Shown piece by piece: positions 31,555 through 39,103 of a stretch of DNA of 64,000 bases (its first letter is position 1; every line of letters begins with the position of its first letter). A model generated the notes under the pieces. The model saw nothing but the letters and a program-made list of their open reading frames with translations. It searched no databases and had not been told where the DNA came from. The position numbers were made by a program, and so were the translations under genes. The DNA comes from Candidatus Manganitrophaceae bacterium. Lineage in GTDB: Bacteria; Nitrospirota; Nitrospiria; SBBL01; Manganitrophaceae. The stretch is from assembly GCA_016200325.1 (NCBI GenBank), contig JACQEZ010000011.1:248001-312000 (forward strand), read 5' to 3'.

Positions 31555-31746
31555 ATGAAAAAGTCTCAGGTCACGGTTCGGTTGGACAAAGATCAACTGG
31601 CTCGCGCACAAAAAATTCTAGGTGCCGAGACCATCACAGAAACAATCGAGCAGGCGTTGGCATTGGCCACAGAAAAAGCAACGCACGACGCCATCGTTCG
31701 TAAATATAGCGGCACAGGCCGAAAGGACTCCTTTGCAGACCGGTAA
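31555..31746 (+). CDS. Ribbon-helix-helix antitoxin, VapB-like, without toxin
   Basis: 63 residues beginning MKKSQVTVRLDKDQLARAQKIL, then TITETIEQALALA, the beta-strand plus two-helix pattern of RHH antitoxins that neutralise PIN-domain VapC toxins. A TTGACG box sits at 31,503 with an AT-rich candidate -10 15-17 bases on, and TAGGAGG precedes the ATG. No toxin follows; the next gene is another antitoxin. An orphan antitoxin that could be a decayed module or an anti-addiction gene. Confidence 0.75.
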   Translation: MKKSQVTVRLDKDQLARAQKILGAETITETIEQALALATEKATHDAIVRKYSGTGRKDSFADR

Positions 31747-31839: not shown

Positions 31840-32037
31840 GTGCGCATAAAATTAAACATTGAGGACAAACTGCTTGACCAGGCATCAAAGTTGACCGGCG
31901 TTAAGGAAAAAACATCGCTGGTCAGACTGGGTCTTGAAGCATTAATTGCCAGAGAAAGTAGCAAACGGCTGGCTGAGCTCGGGGGAACTGAAAAGAAATT
32001 AAAGTCGATCCCACGCCGAAGAATGGGTCATAGATAA
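31840..32037 (+). CDS. vapB: VapB-family antitoxin
   Basis: 65 residues beginning MRIKLNIEDKLLDQASKLTGVKEKT, then SLVRLGLEALIARESSKRLAELGG, the pattern of type II VapB (RHH) antitoxins. The start is GTG with a GAGGTGAGACC ribosome site. A basic tail ends the protein. Directly downstream only the first few codons of a VapC-type toxin remain, so this is an orphan antitoxin today. Confidence 0.8.
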   Translation: MRIKLNIEDKLLDQASKLTGVKEKTSLVRLGLEALIARESSKRLAELGGTEKKLKSIPRRRMGHR

Positions 32038-32098: not shown

Positions 32099-33652
32099 CT
32101 ACGATTTCTGCATCTGCTGAAAGGTGATCTCCGTGAACTCGGCCGGGCGGCTGATCGCCACCTTCACCGTGACCCGCAAGATCCCCTCGACAATCTCTTC
32201 CGCCGTCATCGTCTCTCCGAGTCCCACCTGAACGCTGAACGCGTCATCCGCACTCGCTCCCGCCAGCCCTCCCCGTTTCCAAACCGAGTCGAGGAAATTG
32301 CCGATCATGCTTTTGAGGGCGACCCAGGTGGTGGCGTCGTTTTTCTCGAAGATAAAGGCTTTCGCCGCCAGCTTGATCGATTCTTCCAGCATGATCCTCG
32401 TTCGGCACATGTGGATATACCGCCGATCGGGGCTGTTTCCGTCGAGGGTCCGCGCCCCCGAAACCAGCGTCCCTTCGCCGACGAAGGCACGGAGGACGTT
32501 GATCGACTTCCCCTGCGGGGAGACGTTCAGCGCCTCCCGCTCCTCGTCGGTGATGGGGACGGCGGGAGAAATCACGGCGTTCAAACTGGCGTTCGCCGGC
32601 GCCTTCCAGACCCCCTGCGACGCGTCGATCGTCGTATAGACGCCGGCCATCGCGGCCGCCGGCGGGAGGAGGTTCAGACGGCGCTGGATCTCGGAGAGAA
32701 TCTTGCCGTAAAGCGGGAAGCCGGCACGGAGGTTCCTGTCCAGAACTTTTTTAGAAGTCGATACCTCCTCCGCCTTCGCCCCGGAATCTTCCGTCCAGTC
32801 CTGGGTGATGTGGTCCACCCCTTCAATCAGCGCGGCCACCCGCTCGGGTTTCAAACCTTCCGCCGCCAGGCGCTTCACTTCCGCCCTGAGAAGGGTCTGC
32901 AAGCGCTCTTTATTGGAAATGTTTTCGTAACTCACCTCGTTATTTTGAACAATGGCGGTGTTCAGCCAGGGATAATAGGCCGCCGCAAAGTCGAGGTATT
33001 TGTTCCCCACACCGTCTCGGAACTTCTCAATCACATCCCCGCCGGGCCCCTGCCTTCCTTGATCCCCTCCGTGAACATCGAGAATCGCAACCCGGTTTCC
33101 CATCTCTCCGCAATGGGCCAAGGCGGCCTGCTGCACCGCGGCGCAATCGGCCGCCGGCAGCCGCACCGCTTCCGGGATCACCACCATCGTCGGTTCCAGC
33201 TCCGCCGTCAGCGTGTCGATGCCGGCCTGCAGCTTGTCCGCCGCGAAATCGGCGGCATAGTCTCCCACCGACACGATGTAACAGACCTCCCCGCCGTTTT
33301 GAAAGAAAAGGAGCATGCTGTAATAAAGGAGATATTTTCTCGAATCCCACGTCAGCGAATAGCCGTTCTTGTCTTCATCGAAAAAAGCGGCGACCGGGGA
33401 CGCTGCAGGGGAAGTCGCCGATTGATCGATCTTGGCAAGAGTGAACTTCGGCGTCGGGCCGACGCCGAAATAGGTTTGGAACTCCGGCAGCGAGCTGATC
33501 CGCCGGGGCGTGTTCAACAACGATTTTCCCTGATCGTCGGCCTTCTCGGTATGGCCGATGAATGCGGGAACCGCGGTCGCCACCTCCACCACGGAATTGG
33601 GAAAGGCATTTTTTTCGACGATAAAAACACCGGGGCCTTTTATCTTTTCCAT
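32099..33652 (-). CDS. Contractile-tail sheath protein (orphan)
   Basis: 517-residue phage-tail-sheath family protein. It begins MEKIKGPGVFIVEKNAFPNSVVEVATAVPAF's core (sheath N-terminal arm pattern 'PGVYVEE...'), with FIGHT, and ends with the conserved C-terminal region GILRVTVKVAISRPAEFTEITFQQ. The stretch near IHMCRTRIMLEESIKLAAKAFIFEKN also fits the family. Such subunits form the contracting sleeve of myophage tails and extracellular contractile injection systems. No tube, baseplate, spike, AAA+ or tail-fibre gene is nearby. Ribosome site AAAGGGAAA. GC content matches the chromosome, unlike the AT-rich island beside it. Confidence 0.85.
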   Translation of the reverse strand: MEKIKGPGVFIVEKNAFPNSVVEVATAVPAFIGHTEKADDQGKSLLNTPRRISSLPEFQTYFGVGPTPKFTLAKIDQSATSPAASPVAAFFDEDKNGYSLTWDSRKYLLYYSMLLFFQNGGEVCYIVSVGDYAADFAADKLQAGIDTLTAELEPTMVVIPEAVRLPAADCAAVQQAALAHCGEMGNRVAILDVHGGDQGRQGPGGDVIEKFRDGVGNKYLDFAAAYYPWLNTAIVQNNEVSYENISNKERLQTLLRAEVKRLAAEGLKPERVAALIEGVDHITQDWTEDSGAKAEEVSTSKKVLDRNLRAGFPLYGKILSEIQRRLNLLPPAAAMAGVYTTIDASQGVWKAPANASLNAVISPAVPITDEEREALNVSPQGKSINVLRAFVGEGTLVSGARTLDGNSPDRRYIHMCRTRIMLEESIKLAAKAFIFEKNDATTWVALKSMIGNFLDSVWKRGGLAGASADDAFSVQVGLGETMTAEEIVEGILRVTVKVAISRPAEFTEITFQQMQKS

Positions 33653-34223
33653 ACGCTTTCCCTTTCATTCGGGTTAAAAGGACGATCGCCTGTCTGCTGT
33701 TTTCTCTTTGAGTGACTTGGGAGGACGGGTCCGGGACAACAACTCGCGCTCAGTGGGGGCCTGGGGAGGTATTAAACCCTTCTCGGTGCGTTGTCAATGC
33801 GGTCGCTGAGGCGACTGCGGGAGGGCCGGGGACTAGCGGATTCATTCTCAGAAAATGTTCTTCTCCTTCAAAGTCTGCCCCTTCAGCAATGTTCCTAAAC
33901 TCTGCTATAGACATCAACTTTAATTATAATTTGGCTTATTTAAAGTTAAGTTCTTAACTTTAAATATAAAAACTGTATGTAAAGAAAAATCCAAGACTTC
34001 AAATTGGGTATTTATTTTCCCTCACGATCTCTTTCAATGCATCAATGCAAGGCCTGACCCCGTTCATTTCTCCGCACATGCTAACAAATTTTGAAAAAAG
34101 AACGCAATCCAATCTCAAATTAAATTTTCAAAGTTACCGGTGCCCCATATCCCCCCTGCCCGATCGCATCGCGTCGGCCTTGCATGATTGACAGAGTGAT
34201 TAGCTTGAATCCGGGTGGCACGT
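33653..34223. other. Gene-free stretch at the edge of the AT-rich island
   Basis: About 570 bases with no credible gene. Base composition changes abruptly near 33,880 from GC-rich to AT-rich. A segment TGCATCAATGCAAGGCCTGACCC's core at about 34,037-34,060 resembles sequence often found beside REP-associated (Y1) transposases, though no transposase is present. A self-complementary AAAGTTAAG...CTTAACTTT occurs near 33,941-33,962. Confidence 0.6.
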
Positions 34224-35138
34224 TCAGGATGATACCGCCATATGATGGAGGGTCGGCCTTAGTTTGCGGTATTGTGGCCGGTTTGTTTGTCGATTCTTGA
34301 TTTCATCGGGTAATCGTAGGCCTTTAGATGCTATTAATAGCTCGGAGCCAACCCGTTTTGTTTGTATGGAATAATTTATATCGAATAAAAACTGGCGACG
34401 CTTAACGTAGAGGGCCTGGATTTCTTTTGTATAGTCATAAGTTACAATCCAAGGGTATTTCAATCCCAAAACTGTATCTGCAACATCTTTGTGTTCATCC
34501 GGGCCGTAATAGTTTGTGTATAGACTTGACCCTTTGTTGAAGTAGGGCGGATCGATGCAAAAAAACGTCTTTTCTGGCAGGTTTTTCTGCATTTGTTTCA
34601 TGAATGGTATTGCATCAAGATTGGTAAGATGAATTCGATTGCGATACTTGGCAACACGTTTTATCCGCCGAGCTAAGTCCTTACGATTGAAACGGCAGTC
34701 AAGCTTATAGTTACTATTTTGTGACAGTCCCCCTATTGCGCCCGCTCCTTTGATGACGCCAGAACGGTTAGTTCTATTCAAGAAAAATGTTGCGAATGCG
34801 AGCTGAAGTGTGTTGTCCGAATCCACTGAGAGATGGATTTCCTTTTGTCGATGCCACTCTTTTATTGTTACGGGAGTGTCTTCTACCAATTCGATCAATT
34901 CTTCTGTCCGATTTAAAACGCATTCCCAGAACGCGCAGATGGAAATATCCAAGTCATTTATATGTATGTCGCTTACATGTCCCTCATAAAGCAGCGAGAG
35001 AGCCAGTCCGCATCCACCGGCATAGGGCTCAACATAATGCCCCCTTTCTAAACGATTCTCGCGGAGAATAGTAGAAACAAGACCATAAAGGCAGGATTTT
35101 CCGCCGGGGTATCGAAGAGGTGAGGTTGTTCTAATCAT
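34224..35138 (-). CDS. D12-class N6-adenine DNA methyltransferase (Dam-like)
   Basis: 304-residue methylase of the Dam/D12 type. The N-terminal SAM-binding motif reads SPLRYPGGKSCL and the catalytic motif IV is the DPPY in FFCIDPPYFNKGS; YVEPYAGGCGLALSL and TFFLNRTNRSGVIKG are further family signatures. No restriction nuclease is adjacent; the same-strand upstream neighbour is a ParB-like gene ending 80 bases away. AT-rich codons unlike the surrounding genome suggest recent acquisition. It could be a solitary regulator, the modification half of a restriction or BREX-like defence, or a phage methylase. Target site unknown. Confidence 0.92.
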   Translation of the reverse strand: MIRTTSPLRYPGGKSCLYGLVSTILRENRLERGHYVEPYAGGCGLALSLLYEGHVSDIHINDLDISICAFWECVLNRTEELIELVEDTPVTIKEWHRQKEIHLSVDSDNTLQLAFATFFLNRTNRSGVIKGAGAIGGLSQNSNYKLDCRFNRKDLARRIKRVAKYRNRIHLTNLDAIPFMKQMQKNLPEKTFFCIDPPYFNKGSSLYTNYYGPDEHKDVADTVLGLKYPWIVTYDYTKEIQALYVKRRQFLFDINYSIQTKRVGSELLIASKGLRLPDEIKNRQTNRPQYRKLRPTLHHMAVSS

Positions 35139-35218
35139 ACTTTGACCGCTTATTTTTCATAACTTTCAAAGTAGTTTAACATTTATCGATTCACTCGGCC
35201 AGCGATTTCAAGGGAGCG

Positions 35219-36520
35219 TTATTTTCCCTTCGCTTCTTCTGCCAATTTGCATATTACTTCTTTCAAGGTATCCATATCATTGGCAAGCTGCTCCCCACTG
35301 AAATTTGCCGACCTATCATGGTGCTTTGTGGTATTCCCATAATTGGAGATCCGTTGAAGCGCCTGGCGAATTGAATTTACATCTTCCTTAACGGAAAAAC
35401 CCATAGAATTGAGCTTCTGTTTACTCAGAAAATCATTGAAAGAGGTGGCTGAATTTCGTCCGCATTGTGAAGTTAAACACTCAAAGAATGACCATGCCCC
35501 CACGGAAATAAGAGGTGTGTGGTTTTCGAGACTAATATCACAAATCGAATAGTATATCGTTTCCATTTTATAGCTGGGTATGGCTTTCAACTTGGCGTGG
35601 ATGTCCGCTTCGTAGCGAATATTTTTTGGTCTGTCGGGTTTCTTTGGTGATGTTTTCCTTTTCCTACCCGTACCTCCTGCGCTTGGATCAGACAACGACT
35701 CAGGATCGGTGCGCCTTCCCGTTAATCCATCAGTTGTGCCAAGAGTACGAGAGTACTCCTTAATTGCTTTCGAGTTGGAACGTGAATTCACGACATCACT
35801 TAGTAAATCTGCTATGAATTTCTTTAAGAGAAGATCGAAGTCAGGTTTCGGTCTGTTTCGTGAGATGTCCTCAAGATTGCTGGTATCAAGACCCATTGTC
35901 TCACGCAGGATAGCGTTGCCAAGGTATCGCTGTACTGTGGTGATTTTCCCTTCTCGGTCCTGTGCCGATATTAGATGATTTTTCTCGGCGTAGTCCAAAA
36001 CGACTTGCGCGAGAATGTTTTTCTTATCACCGATATGGCGTGTCTTTTGTTCAGCGTTCCACGGCTTTCTGCCAATACCTCCCTGCAAGCCGCCGTGTAT
36101 TCTATCCAGCCAAATATCCACTGCATTCTTATCGTCAAATATGACGGCAAGCACCTCTGATATTTTCGGCGACTTTTCAGCCAGTTTTTCAAAAGCCTTG
36201 CGTTGTTTCGTGGGAGCTCGATCGGGATCATTTAACAACCTGATCGCACACATGCGCCGATTGCCTTCTGCGACTGTATAAGAGGCTACTGCGCGCTGCT
36301 TGTCCTTTTTTCCATCTAATGGGATAAGCGCAAAAAGCTCTAATGGATTCAGGCCATGCTTCGATATATCTTTAGCAAGCTCATACACGTACTCATCACG
36401 ACAGAGATATTCGATTACTTCCGCTTCACTCTGGTAAGGTTTATGCCTGGGGTTTTCAAGATTGAGAAAAATTCGATCTACAGAGATTATCTTTGCATCT
36501 ACGAGTTGATGTTTGATCAT
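35219..36520 (-). CDS. ParB/sulfiredoxin-fold domain protein, possible partner of the methylase
   Basis: 433 residues. An N-terminal ParB/Srx-like domain (about 8-110) has VDRIFLNLENPRHKPYQSE and the motif VAEGNRRMCAIRLL, replacing the usual GHRR/GERR with EGNRR. A helical middle (about 150-260) and a Lys/Pro-rich linker (about 270-310) precede a helical C-terminal domain (about 320-425) ending near ISNYGNTTKHHDRS, which recalls HEPN/DUF4145-like ends, though the canonical R-x4-H is not intact. It is not a plasmid ParB: no ParA and no parS were seen. AT-rich, same strand as the methylase; possibly one functional unit. Role unknown. Confidence 0.8.
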   Translation of the reverse strand: MIKHQLVDAKIISVDRIFLNLENPRHKPYQSEAEVIEYLCRDEYVYELAKDISKHGLNPLELFALIPLDGKKDKQRAVASYTVAEGNRRMCAIRLLNDPDRAPTKQRKAFEKLAEKSPKISEVLAVIFDDKNAVDIWLDRIHGGLQGGIGRKPWNAEQKTRHIGDKKNILAQVVLDYAEKNHLISAQDREGKITTVQRYLGNAILRETMGLDTSNLEDISRNRPKPDFDLLLKKFIADLLSDVVNSRSNSKAIKEYSRTLGTTDGLTGRRTDPESLSDPSAGGTGRKRKTSPKKPDRPKNIRYEADIHAKLKAIPSYKMETIYYSICDISLENHTPLISVGAWSFFECLTSQCGRNSATSFNDFLSKQKLNSMGFSVKEDVNSIRQALQRISNYGNTTKHHDRSANFSGEQLANDMDTLKEVICKLAEEAKGK

Positions 36521-36624
36521 CTTTTAGCCATAGTCAGGGTTATTTTATATTAAAACTTACGATTAGAGGAAATCATCGAACCACCCGTCGATGTGCTTTT
36601 CTCTTTCATGACCATTCCCTTCCC

Positions 36625-36843
36625 CTACACCAGCTCGATCATCACCCGGCGTCCGACCATCGCTGCCGCCCGTTGCAGACTCGAAAGCGTGATATCATTT
36701 CTCGGATCAAGCAGGCGGGCAACCGGCGGATTGCACAGGCAATCGAATTCACGAAGCGTGATCTGATCCATCACACCCGCTTTGTGCAGTCCCTTCGCTG
36801 TGGCATAGACCGCTTCAAGGATTGCTAATTTTCTTCTCCTCAT
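36625..36843 (-). pseudogene. Chimeric antitoxin fragment
   Basis: 72 residues that look like the joining of two antitoxin families. The first half (LAILEAVYATAKGLHKAGVM, then DQITLREFDCLCNPPV) is the N-terminus of HigA/MqsA-type antitoxins, which would normally continue into an HTH. The second half (RVARLLDPRNDITLSSLQ-like: ARLLDPRNDITLSSLQRAAA then RRVMIELV) is the C-terminus of an XRE-type antitoxin. No complete HTH remains. Probably the scar of a deletion between two TA modules. Confidence 0.6.
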
Positions 36844-37278
36844 TGCGCCATCTTACACCAATTCGGCGTAATTTCGAATCCCATTTTCCATCCTAAATGT
36901 TATTGTTCCCCCGCCTGCCGTCGCGTCCGGGAAGATGCGTCCCTACCGCGACAGCGAAAAGTCCCGCCGCCCCCATGGGGCTCCCCGCCGCACGACATCC
37001 AGCGGAGCCAAGGACACCCGTGGCTCTTGGGGTCGCGTCTTGAATCTTGATAAACCGGACAAGATCCTCTGTTTGTTAGAATGAGAATATTCCTACAGAG
37101 CAATGAGGTCACCCGTCATATAATCTATTTAAGAACAGCATTCATGATTTGTGTTTTTAATCTACTCCATTCATGGATTTCCTTCAACCGTAGTTTTCAG
37201 GAAGTGACCGATGAGGGGTATTGGGCACAGAAATAGTGTTCAACTGTTACTGCTCTTTTAAGAACATCCTAAAAAGAA
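36844..37278. other. Gene-free stretch with first copy of the island direct repeat
   Basis: 435 bases, no credible gene. It contains a GC-rich patch (about 36,900-37,025) that contrasts with the AT-rich island and then repeat copy A (37,022-37,143). A 70-codon minus-strand reading through here (CXXC-rich, proline/arginine-rich) looks spurious. Confidence 0.6.
37022..37143 (+). repeat. Island direct repeat, copy A
   Basis: About 122 bases starting GGCTCTTGGGGTCGCGTCTT and ending AACAGCATTC. Copy B lies at 38,585-38,710 in the same orientation and differs at scattered bases and small indels. The two copies bracket the truncated antitoxin and the higBA-like pair. Confidence 0.85.
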
Positions 37279-37533
37279 CTATGCGGCCGGCTGGTTCGCT
37301 TTGACCTGAAGTTGGACATCCTCATATGCTTGAAGAATTTTAATAATCCCGAAGATACTTTCCGCCCTCGGGTTGCCGCGCGGTCCAAGCATTCGGTGAA
37401 TACTTTTGCTGGGCTTGCCGAGCTCCTTCGCCAAGCCTTCAAACGTAATCGTTGCATTGATATAATCCCGCAACAAGGCCTTGCCCGCCCCAAGGTCGCC
37501 TGCAAGCAGCGCATTCACCGCCTCGGTTAGACT
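37279..37533 (-). pseudogene. 5'-truncated HigA-like antitoxin
   Basis: Codes for the C-terminal two thirds of an addiction-module antidote protein: (SLTEAV)NALLAGDLGAGKALLRDYINATI, then LAKELGKPSKSIHRMLGPRGNPR, the HTH of this antitoxin family. The normal N-terminal segment ahead of LLTEAVNALLAGD is missing: a TGA stop appears right upstream of the SLTEAV codons. A GTG at 37,518 could still give 79 residues, but family proteins are longer. No toxin partner. It is a broken module member. Confidence 0.7.
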
Positions 37534-37689
37534 TCAACCTAAGTTACTTATTTTTATACGAAATAAATCCGCTCTTTTTGTCCAGGGCCAGTCTGGGGCC
37601 ACAATTACATAGCCATAAAAATAGCATTCCAGAAAAGCCTCAGCGATAAGCAGCCAGTGCCAAACCTTGTTGTGCAATTTTGCATGTAC

Positions 37690-37718
37690 TTGACAACATA
37701 TGTATTATAATACATAAT
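37690..37718 (+). promoter_or_regulatory. Promoter with 18-bp palindromic operator for the HigBA-like pair
   Basis: TTGACA (37,690-37,695) and CATAAT (37,713-37,718) are spaced by 17 bases. A perfect 18-bp palindrome TATGTATTATAATACATA (37,699-37,716) covers the spacer and -10. This is the expected binding site for an autorepressing antitoxin. Transcription should start at or just before the GTG at 37,725, so the toxin mRNA may be leaderless. Confidence 0.75.
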
Positions 37719-37724
37719 ATCTCA

Positions 37725-38087
37725 GTGAACTGGGATGTCCTTATACATGAAGAATTCGAACCCGAGTTTGATGCCCTGCCTGAAGAAGTGCAGAACGAAC
37801 TCCTCGCTCATGCGAAACTTCTCAAAGAATTTGGACCTCAGTTAGGTAGACCTTGGGTCGACACGCTTAAAGGCTCCCGCTACGTGAACATGAAAGAGCT
37901 AAGGTTTGATGCAGCTGATGGCGTTTGGCGTGTCGCCTTTGCCTTCGACCCCAAGAGGAAAGCGATTCTTCTGGTGTGCGGCGACAAGTCAGGAGGGAGC
38001 TCAAAACGCTTTTATAAACAACTGATCAGTAAAGCAGATAAGAGATTTGACGGGCACCTAACCCGTTTGAAAAAGGAAAGGAAGTAG
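37725..38087 (+). CDS. higB: HigB/RelE-like toxin (Gp49-family)
   Basis: 120 residues from the GTG at 37,725: an N-W-D-V-L start, then EEFEPEFDALPEEVQNELLA, the basic PWVDTLKGSRYVNMKELRF and VWRVAFAFDPKRKAILLVCG, and the C-terminal KRFYKQLISKADKRFDGHL. This is the RelE/HigB fold of ribosome-dependent mRNA interferases. The GTG lies within the first bases of the predicted transcript. An ATG at 37,680 would fall upstream of the promoter and is unlikely. Four bases before the antitoxin gene; toxin-first order is typical of higBA. Confidence 0.85.
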   Translation: MNWDVLIHEEFEPEFDALPEEVQNELLAHAKLLKEFGPQLGRPWVDTLKGSRYVNMKELRFDAADGVWRVAFAFDPKRKAILLVCGDKSGGSSKRFYKQLISKADKRFDGHLTRLKKERK

Positions 38088-38091
38088 AACG

Positions 38092-38442
38092 ATGAAAACG
38101 ATTGATCAAAAAATGAAGGGAATGACTGCCGAGCGGCGGAAAAAAATTGAAGCACGCGCCGCGCAATTACGTGCCGAGGAAATGACCCTTCAGGAACTCC
38201 GGCGGGCACGCAAGCTTACACAGGCTCGGATGGCGAAGGCTCTTGGCATCTCTCAAGATGGCGTTTCCCGCCTCGAAAAACGTACAGACCTTTTGCTTTC
38301 AACACTTCGTAAAACGGTGGAAGCTATGGGTGGCAATTTGTCTATTGTAGCGGAATTTCCAGATCGAGAGCCAGTTATTTTATCTGGCATCGCCACTGAG
38401 GATTCAGAGCCTACTGTATCTCGTAAACACGTGCCGGCATAG
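38092..38442 (+). CDS. higA: XRE-family antitoxin (HigA-like)
   Basis: 116 residues with a helical N-terminal arm (MTAERRKKIEARAAQLRAEE) and a helix-turn-helix (about 38-92: LQELRRARKLTQARMAKALG, ISQDGVSRLEKRTDLLLSTL). The tail contains MGGNLSIVAEFPDREPVIL, seen in antitoxins that wrap HigB. It should neutralise the toxin just upstream and bind the 18-bp palindrome to repress the operon. The only apparently intact TA pair of the island. Confidence 0.9.
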   Translation: MKTIDQKMKGMTAERRKKIEARAAQLRAEEMTLQELRRARKLTQARMAKALGISQDGVSRLEKRTDLLLSTLRKTVEAMGGNLSIVAEFPDREPVILSGIATEDSEPTVSRKHVPA

Positions 38443-38584
38443 TGTAACACCTCAAAAACCGACATCTGTCTTATTGGTATTCAGGAAGGACTACTACTCT
38501 AAAAATTCGCCATCAAACGAACATTGAAACGCGCATGTCGCGCCAGCATAGAACTGTGTTCTCATCTCCTTTTGTGACCCGTCG

Positions 38585-38710
38585 GGCTCTTGGGGTCGCG
38601 TCTTGAATATTGATAAACCGGACAAGATCCTCTGTTTCTTAGAATGAGAATCTTCCTACAGAGCGATGAGGGTCGCCCGTCACATGTTTATCTATTTAAA
38701 AACAGCATTC
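38585..38710 (+). repeat. Island direct repeat, copy B
   Basis: About 126 bases starting GGCTCTTGGGGTCGCGTCTT and ending AACAGCATTC, matching copy A at 37,022-37,143 with scattered differences. Its right end overlaps the 3' end of the frameshifted hicB-like gene. Confidence 0.85.
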
Positions 38711-38952
38711 CGTTGGAAGCCTTTTCTTTTACCCATCCGAGCGACTGTAGAACCTCATCAAGGGTGCCGTCTTCAATACACTCGTTGATAAAAAGTTGCG
38801 CCGCCTCGCTGATATTTTGCAGGGCCTTCTTTTCCGTTTTGCCGCAGGCAAGATAAATCTAAGACAGGAGGATAGGCAACATAACTTTGGCCTTCCTTAA
38901 ACAGCTTTACTGGAATATTGAGATCGATTTGGATTTTGGTTTTTTCTGCCAT
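38688..38952 (-). pseudogene. hicB: Frameshifted HicB-like antitoxin
   Basis: Begins ATG at 38,952 after an AGGAGA site: MAEKTKIQIDLNIPVKLF, then EGQSYVAYPPVLDLS, the N-terminal fold of HicB. A single extra base near 38,860 shifts the frame (LDLS|CGKTEKKALQNI). After correction it continues EAAQLFINECIEDGTLDEVL, QSLGWVKEK and stops at 38,688. In the current frame a stop comes early. No hicA toxin gene is present on either side. Confidence 0.75.
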
Positions 38953-39016
38953 CCGGTTCTCCTGTCGTTAGGATAGCAGAAGAGAGGGGAAGTAAATAGA
39001 ACGGCCTGTAAAAACC

Positions 39017-39103
39017 TGGTGCCGAAGGGGGGACTCGAACCCCCACGGGGTCACCCCCACTAGACCCTGAACCTAGCGTGTCTACCAATTCCACCACTTC
39101 GGC
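39017..39103 (-). tRNA. tRNA-Leu (CAG)
   Basis: 87-base gene with encoded CCA. Acceptor stem GCCGAAG/CTTCGGC, a long variable arm typical of leucine tRNAs, T-loop GTTCGAGTC and anticodon loop TTCAGGG giving anticodon CAG. Its 3' end points toward the accessory island, the usual geometry for a tRNA integration site, but no second copy of the 3' end was seen. Confidence 0.95.

Follow-up and report, generated by a model that had tools for sequence, protein, structure and literature searches.

PD-Lambda-5 is the described system closest to the locus studied here. It was found in a functional screen and tested in E. coli in 2022 by Vassallo et al. (PMC9519451), and the E. coli system protects against nine of the ten phages tested (PMC9519451). 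The strain used in that work had no mrr (PMC9519451), a host background that fits active DNA methylation. A P2 defence hotspot beside the portal gene was reported in the same study (PMC9519451). Our literature search found no published mechanism for PD-Lambda-5 in the open literature.

The window, by which we mean the whole stretch of 64,000 nucleotides that was analysed, carries two genes, named A and B below, that match this system.

34224-35138, minus strand: predicted D12-class N6-adenine DNA methyltransferase PD-Lambda-5_B (B), 304 aa, second gene (Pfam, PADLOC)
35139-35218, minus strand: gap of exactly 80 bases, from the stop of one ORF to the ATG of the other
35219-36520, minus strand: ParB/Srx-fold protein PD-Lambda-5_A (A), 433 aa, first (upstream) gene (PADLOC, PHROG, Foldseek)

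The PADLOC model PD-Lambda-5_A (PDLC04000) matches A over its full length (E 6e-178, protein residues 9-431 of 433, profile positions 5-425 of 428), the D12 methylase B matches PD-Lambda-5_B (PDLC04018, E 7e-122), and the two genes are adjacent on the same strand in the order A then B. A also matches PHROG 9592 (E 2e-54). We put the probability that the pair belongs to the PD-Lambda-5 anti-phage system at about 95%. An earlier note on this DNA, made from the sequence alone, had likened the two genes to pairings known from defence islands and had not recognised in them any described system. The call of defence stands, with PADLOC naming PD-Lambda-5 and protection demonstrated for the E. coli system (PMC9519451). 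The second point falls: PD-Lambda-5 is already described and modelled in PADLOC, and the locus adds a further copy, not a new kind of system. The gain here lies in annotation: an anti-phage system of a validated type is placed in another bacterium.

In E. coli strain KL53 a natural pair (L124) lies in a P2-like prophage, with the replication endonuclease gene on one side and the portal gene on the other, and pairs of the KL53 type are carried by 22 of 5426 E. coli genomes. PADLOC assigns both KL53 proteins to PD-Lambda-5, their identity to the exact tested allele not being established. With hhalign, the profile of the window A and the E. coli A align across 417 columns (probability 100, E 1e-39), and the identity to the E. 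coli pair is 33% over 217 aa for A and 41% over 287 aa for B. This pair was reached through the methylase of locus L052; DNA similarity searches with L007 or L046 found no E. coli relatives of A.

The pair is held by a low-GC island, whose features and near surroundings are the following.

33787-39016, no strand: variable low-GC island holding the A-B pair, at the tRNA-Leu 3' end (comparison with same-genus genomes)
39017-39103, minus strand: tRNA-Leu (CAG), the anchor of the hotspot
37680-38442, plus strand: HigB-like (Gp49) toxin and HTH antitoxin, a complete pair (Gp49 E 1e-22, HTH antitoxin E 8e-8)
31555-31746 and 31840-32037: two ORFs for VapB-like antitoxins, neither with an obvious toxin

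Over 34-39 kb the GC content runs 0.430, 0.439, 0.488, 0.465 and 0.458, against mostly 0.54-0.63 elsewhere in the window, with further dips to 0.482 at 31-32 kb and to 0.478 at 59-60 kb. These values agree with the foreign composition that the earlier note had ascribed to the two genes, and the same holds for its description of them as lying on one strand 80 bases apart, in coordinates, strand and lengths. Its mention of several TA modules nearby is right in part, the modules being one complete HigB/HigA-like pair and the two VapB-like antitoxin ORFs. The HigB/HigA-like pair is probably cargo of the island and outside the PD-Lambda-5 system. No Pfam family was matched by the small ORFs at 36625-36843 and 37279-37518, and no convincing promoter or terminator was found in the 80-base gap. 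An imperfect direct repeat (37022-37143 and 38585-38710; 87 bases at 95% and 21 more bases) flanks the HigBA-like pair. Elsewhere in the window, positions 2475-2773 match the Rfam 5' ureB sRNA (E 5e-26), which perhaps reflects no more than the conservation of a ureB gene.

Three genus-mates keep the tRNA-Leu and an MFS gene, with about 73% nucleotide identity on the MFS side. On the other side, similarity ends at or within 8 bases of the tRNA-Leu 3' end, and beyond it each genus-mate has different low-GC DNA. In G005 this DNA holds an AAA/OLD-like ATPase with a small partner; in G002 it holds a SoFic-type Fic protein and a protein that is either Zn-ribbon/TIR-like or deoxyribosyltransferase-like; in G004 its genes were not recognised. 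The 3' end of tRNA-Leu(CAG) is a hotspot, its cargo differing in four genomes of the genus (the window, L118, L119 and L120), and it gathers defence-like cargo, as seen in two of the three genus-mates. An integrase and an attachment repeat were sought in the window island, and neither was found. A lone phage tail-sheath-like gene (32099-33652) stands at the island edge; in G004 the gene at this place is broken up, and in G002 and G005 none was found at the site.

B matches Pfam MethyltransfD12 (E 4e-12), and its closest solved relatives in the PDB are 7m6b, DpnM and Dam. The catalytic motif is placed as follows.

34542-34553, minus strand: catalytic DPPY of B, residues 196-199, invariant in 18 relatives

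The SAM-binding loop EPYAGG is intact as well, and by its sequence B is classed as a D12-class N6-adenine methylase with intact motifs. PADLOC type II methylase models match it too. Methylases of the B family also occur in other settings. In two E. coli elements, an ICE and a prophage remnant, as well as in Citrobacter phage phiNP, such a methylase lies directly downstream of an AAA/OLD-like ATPase (L121 3930-6579, L122 3924-6636 and L123 3134-5822); the ATPase and the D12 methylase form a possible separate two-gene defence module. In two relatives from the phylum of the window (L031 1928-6806, L032 5855-10800), the genes that follow a B-type methylase without a ParB-like partner encode, in the same cassette, a HIT-like protein, a small protein that seems to have membrane segments, and a PEP-synthase-like protein of about 885 aa, names that were read from the sequence. 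The B-type methylase looks like an exchangeable self-marking module, as far as we can infer.

A is without any family in Pfam or NCBIfam, and neither its sequence nor its profile had a significant match among the PDB sequences. An AlphaFold model built with 22 relatives has a mean pLDDT of 84 and a pTM of 0.41, the latter making the placement of the domains uncertain. The following parts were distinguished.

36137-36493, minus strand: ParB-CTPase-type N-terminal domain, residues 10-128 (AlphaFold pLDDT mostly >80; Foldseek)
36443-36454, minus strand: Box I NPRH, residues 23-26, with N23 and R25 invariant in 22 relatives
36254-36268, minus strand: EGNRR, residues 85-89, at the position of ParB Box II / the phosphate motif, invariant in 22 relatives
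35735-36073, minus strand: middle helical domain, residues 150-262, with conserved W154 and R198
35222-35614, minus strand: all-helical domain at the C-terminus, residues 303-433, GNxTKH conserved; putative HEPN-like effector

Foldseek aligned the N-terminal and middle part of A with the CTP-bound ParB 7bnr (E 7e-4, probability 1.00, 268 columns), and the counterparts of Box I and Box II of ParB are NPRH and EGNRR, both of which are intact in A. Such folds may bind CTP, ATP or GTP, the nucleotide not being predictable from sequence (PMC12704722). The C-terminal domain folded alone has a pLDDT of 90 and a pTM of 0.85. Its best Foldseek match is the HEPN protein 2hsb, a weak one (E 0.31, probability 0.69), and the canonical R-x4-6-H motif by which HEPN membership is judged is absent from it. 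For these reasons the domain is only possibly HEPN-like, and the term is a lead, not a result. A close subgroup of A has GNxTKH with a conserved R ten residues before the H, a pattern that is not conserved in distant relatives. Both the EGNRR motif and the helical C-domain had been pointed out before; the motif is found as listed, and the AlphaFold models bear out the domain. Pfam, profile and Foldseek searches found no PD-(D/E)XK, HNH or other nuclease domain in A.

Relatives of A were gathered from genomes, phages, plasmids and viral contigs. B adjoins A in 32 of the 35 distinct full-length relatives, on the same strand in most pairs and convergent in one subgroup (L006, L054-L058, L063). 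Over 34 pairs, the pairwise distances of A and of B are strongly correlated (Mantel r 0.898, which 0 of 10,000 permutations reached); the test cannot separate co-evolution from joint inheritance, and either means that the pair travels as a unit. Chance adjacency of A and B is ruled out by the pairing count and the Mantel correlation. As for the three relatives without B, the contig of L060 ends shortly after A, the short locus L024 holds a distant relative, and L004 (6359-9266) has two tandem copies of A near a type III-like Mod/Res pair. No B-type methylase was found in the L004 genome assembly, so B is not strictly required. The idea that the two genes form a unit, put forward in the earlier note, is upheld by the conserved neighbourhood and the correlated divergence. 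Homologues of the two genes do co-occur, and the ParB-like gene did not turn out to be a known phage regulator, though temperate phages, Paracoccus phage Pkon1 among them, do carry the pair, as do many viral contigs.

This presence in phages, as well as the anti-defence roles suggested for phage ParB-methyltransferase fusions (PMC12704722), would also suit a phage-derived module for self-protection or regulation, where the methylase, regulated or loaded by the ParB-like protein, shields the DNA of the element from host restriction. We consider this quite improbable, as protective activity has been demonstrated for the E. coli relative (PMC9519451) and the window copy lies in a tRNA hotspot where the tail-sheath-like gene at the island edge is the sole recognised phage gene. 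A plain type II restriction-modification system with the ParB-like protein as the endonuclease would account for the near-obligate pairing with a methylase and for the matches of B to type II models, and PMC12839542 cites ParB/Srx proteins that have nuclease activity. The lack of any nuclease domain found in A makes this reading very doubtful. No endonuclease gene was found among the island ORFs searched.

Shorter relatives of A, of about 360-400 aa, are without the C-terminal helical domain. A gene with the signature GDGGID..QC is present in the locus of 29 of the 36 distinct short relatives and of none of the 35 full-length ones, and a methylase lies near 32 of the 36 (25 cytosine-type, 7 B-type). 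We call the signature gene Mrr-like on account of a motif that we take to resemble that of Mrr. It was assigned to no PADLOC, Pfam or NCBIfam family, and a PDB search was not significant, its best match being the restriction endonuclease 4f0p (E 0.74). Three-gene phage modules of this kind are seen at L066-L101, L033 and L125, with the methylase mostly cytosine-type and convergent; in phage Wphi the arrangement is gp98-gp96-mth, i.e. ParB-like, Mrr-like motif and cytosine methylase. Our literature search found nothing on these three-gene relatives.

The short relatives, with no C-terminal domain and with a separate Mrr-like-motif gene, are as expected if the C-terminal domain is an effector. 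The comparison of short and full-length proteins suggests one family with exchangeable effectors, and it yields a model that can be tested, where sensing would fall to the ParB-like protein and the effector role to the C-terminal domain. More tentatively, and at somewhat less than even odds, PD-Lambda-5 may belong, as a single branch, to a larger family of ParB switches that are borne by phages and coupled to methylases, in which a common NTP-binding ParB-like sensor has either a built-in helical (HEPN-like) effector and an adenine methylase, or a separate Mrr-like nuclease and a cytosine or adenine methylase. If this is true, the ParB fold would serve in general to tell self from non-self by reading DNA methylation, and the effectors would be exchangeable.

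For the PD-Lambda-5 pair itself, we regard as probable, when taken as a whole, a mechanism where the methylase marks self DNA, the ParB-like protein acts as a sensor gated by NTP and the C-terminal domain is the effector. B would put N6-methyladenine on a sequence motif in host DNA, which would mark it as self. In A, the NPRH and EGNRR boxes would bind a nucleoside triphosphate, and the ParB and middle domains would bind DNA. DNA without host marks, or replicating phage DNA, would make A change state, and A would then fire its C-terminal helical domain; the resulting damage to DNA or RNA would stop the phage, possibly at the cost of the cell.

The methylase of PD-Lambda-5 could instead attack or signal, methylating phage DNA or stalling on it under the control of the ParB-like protein, while host enzymes such as type IV restriction do the damage. 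The use of an E. coli host without mrr (PMC9519451) means that methylation may call in host nucleases; a recognisable nuclease domain is missing from the ParB-like protein, and the methylase family has another partner in the AAA ATPase. However, the E. coli system protects without mrr, and the related three-gene modules bring their own Mrr-like-motif gene. We hold this version to be unlikely and prefer the self-marking methylase with the ParB-like sensor and C-terminal effector.

Several known systems share parts with the pair. Like the type IV systems GmrSD and BrxU (DUF262 and HNH), it has a ParB/Srx-type NTP-binding domain in a putative DNA-directed defence, and BrxU 7p9m is a weak fold match to A in Foldseek. 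Unlike them, A is without a DUF1524/HNH domain and has a partner methylase. The GmrSD/type IV assignment was rejected, as neither A nor its alignment has a GmrSD_N or DUF1524 match and EGNRR replaces DGQQR. With the canonical ParB of ParABS, A has in common the ParB-CTPase fold, Box I and Box II, whereas the methylase partner and the C-terminal domain are different and no ParA gene is found among the island ORFs. Plasmid partition was rejected on the absence of parA, the neighbouring ORFs being the methylase, the tail-sheath-like gene, TA genes and small ORFs; the earlier note had likewise seen no plasmid-partition context. The Wphi module gp98-gp96-mth has a related ParB-like N-terminal domain beside a DNA methylase, but it consists of three genes, with a ParB-like protein that has no C-terminal helical domain and a separate GDGGID..QC gene. 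Compared with the E. coli PD-Lambda-5, the window A has a C-terminal domain in a divergent subgroup with GNxTKH, and the window pair lies at a tRNA-Leu hotspot whereas the E. coli pair lies in a P2 prophage. The two have in common the same two genes in the same order, near full-length homology, and a mobile or hotspot context.
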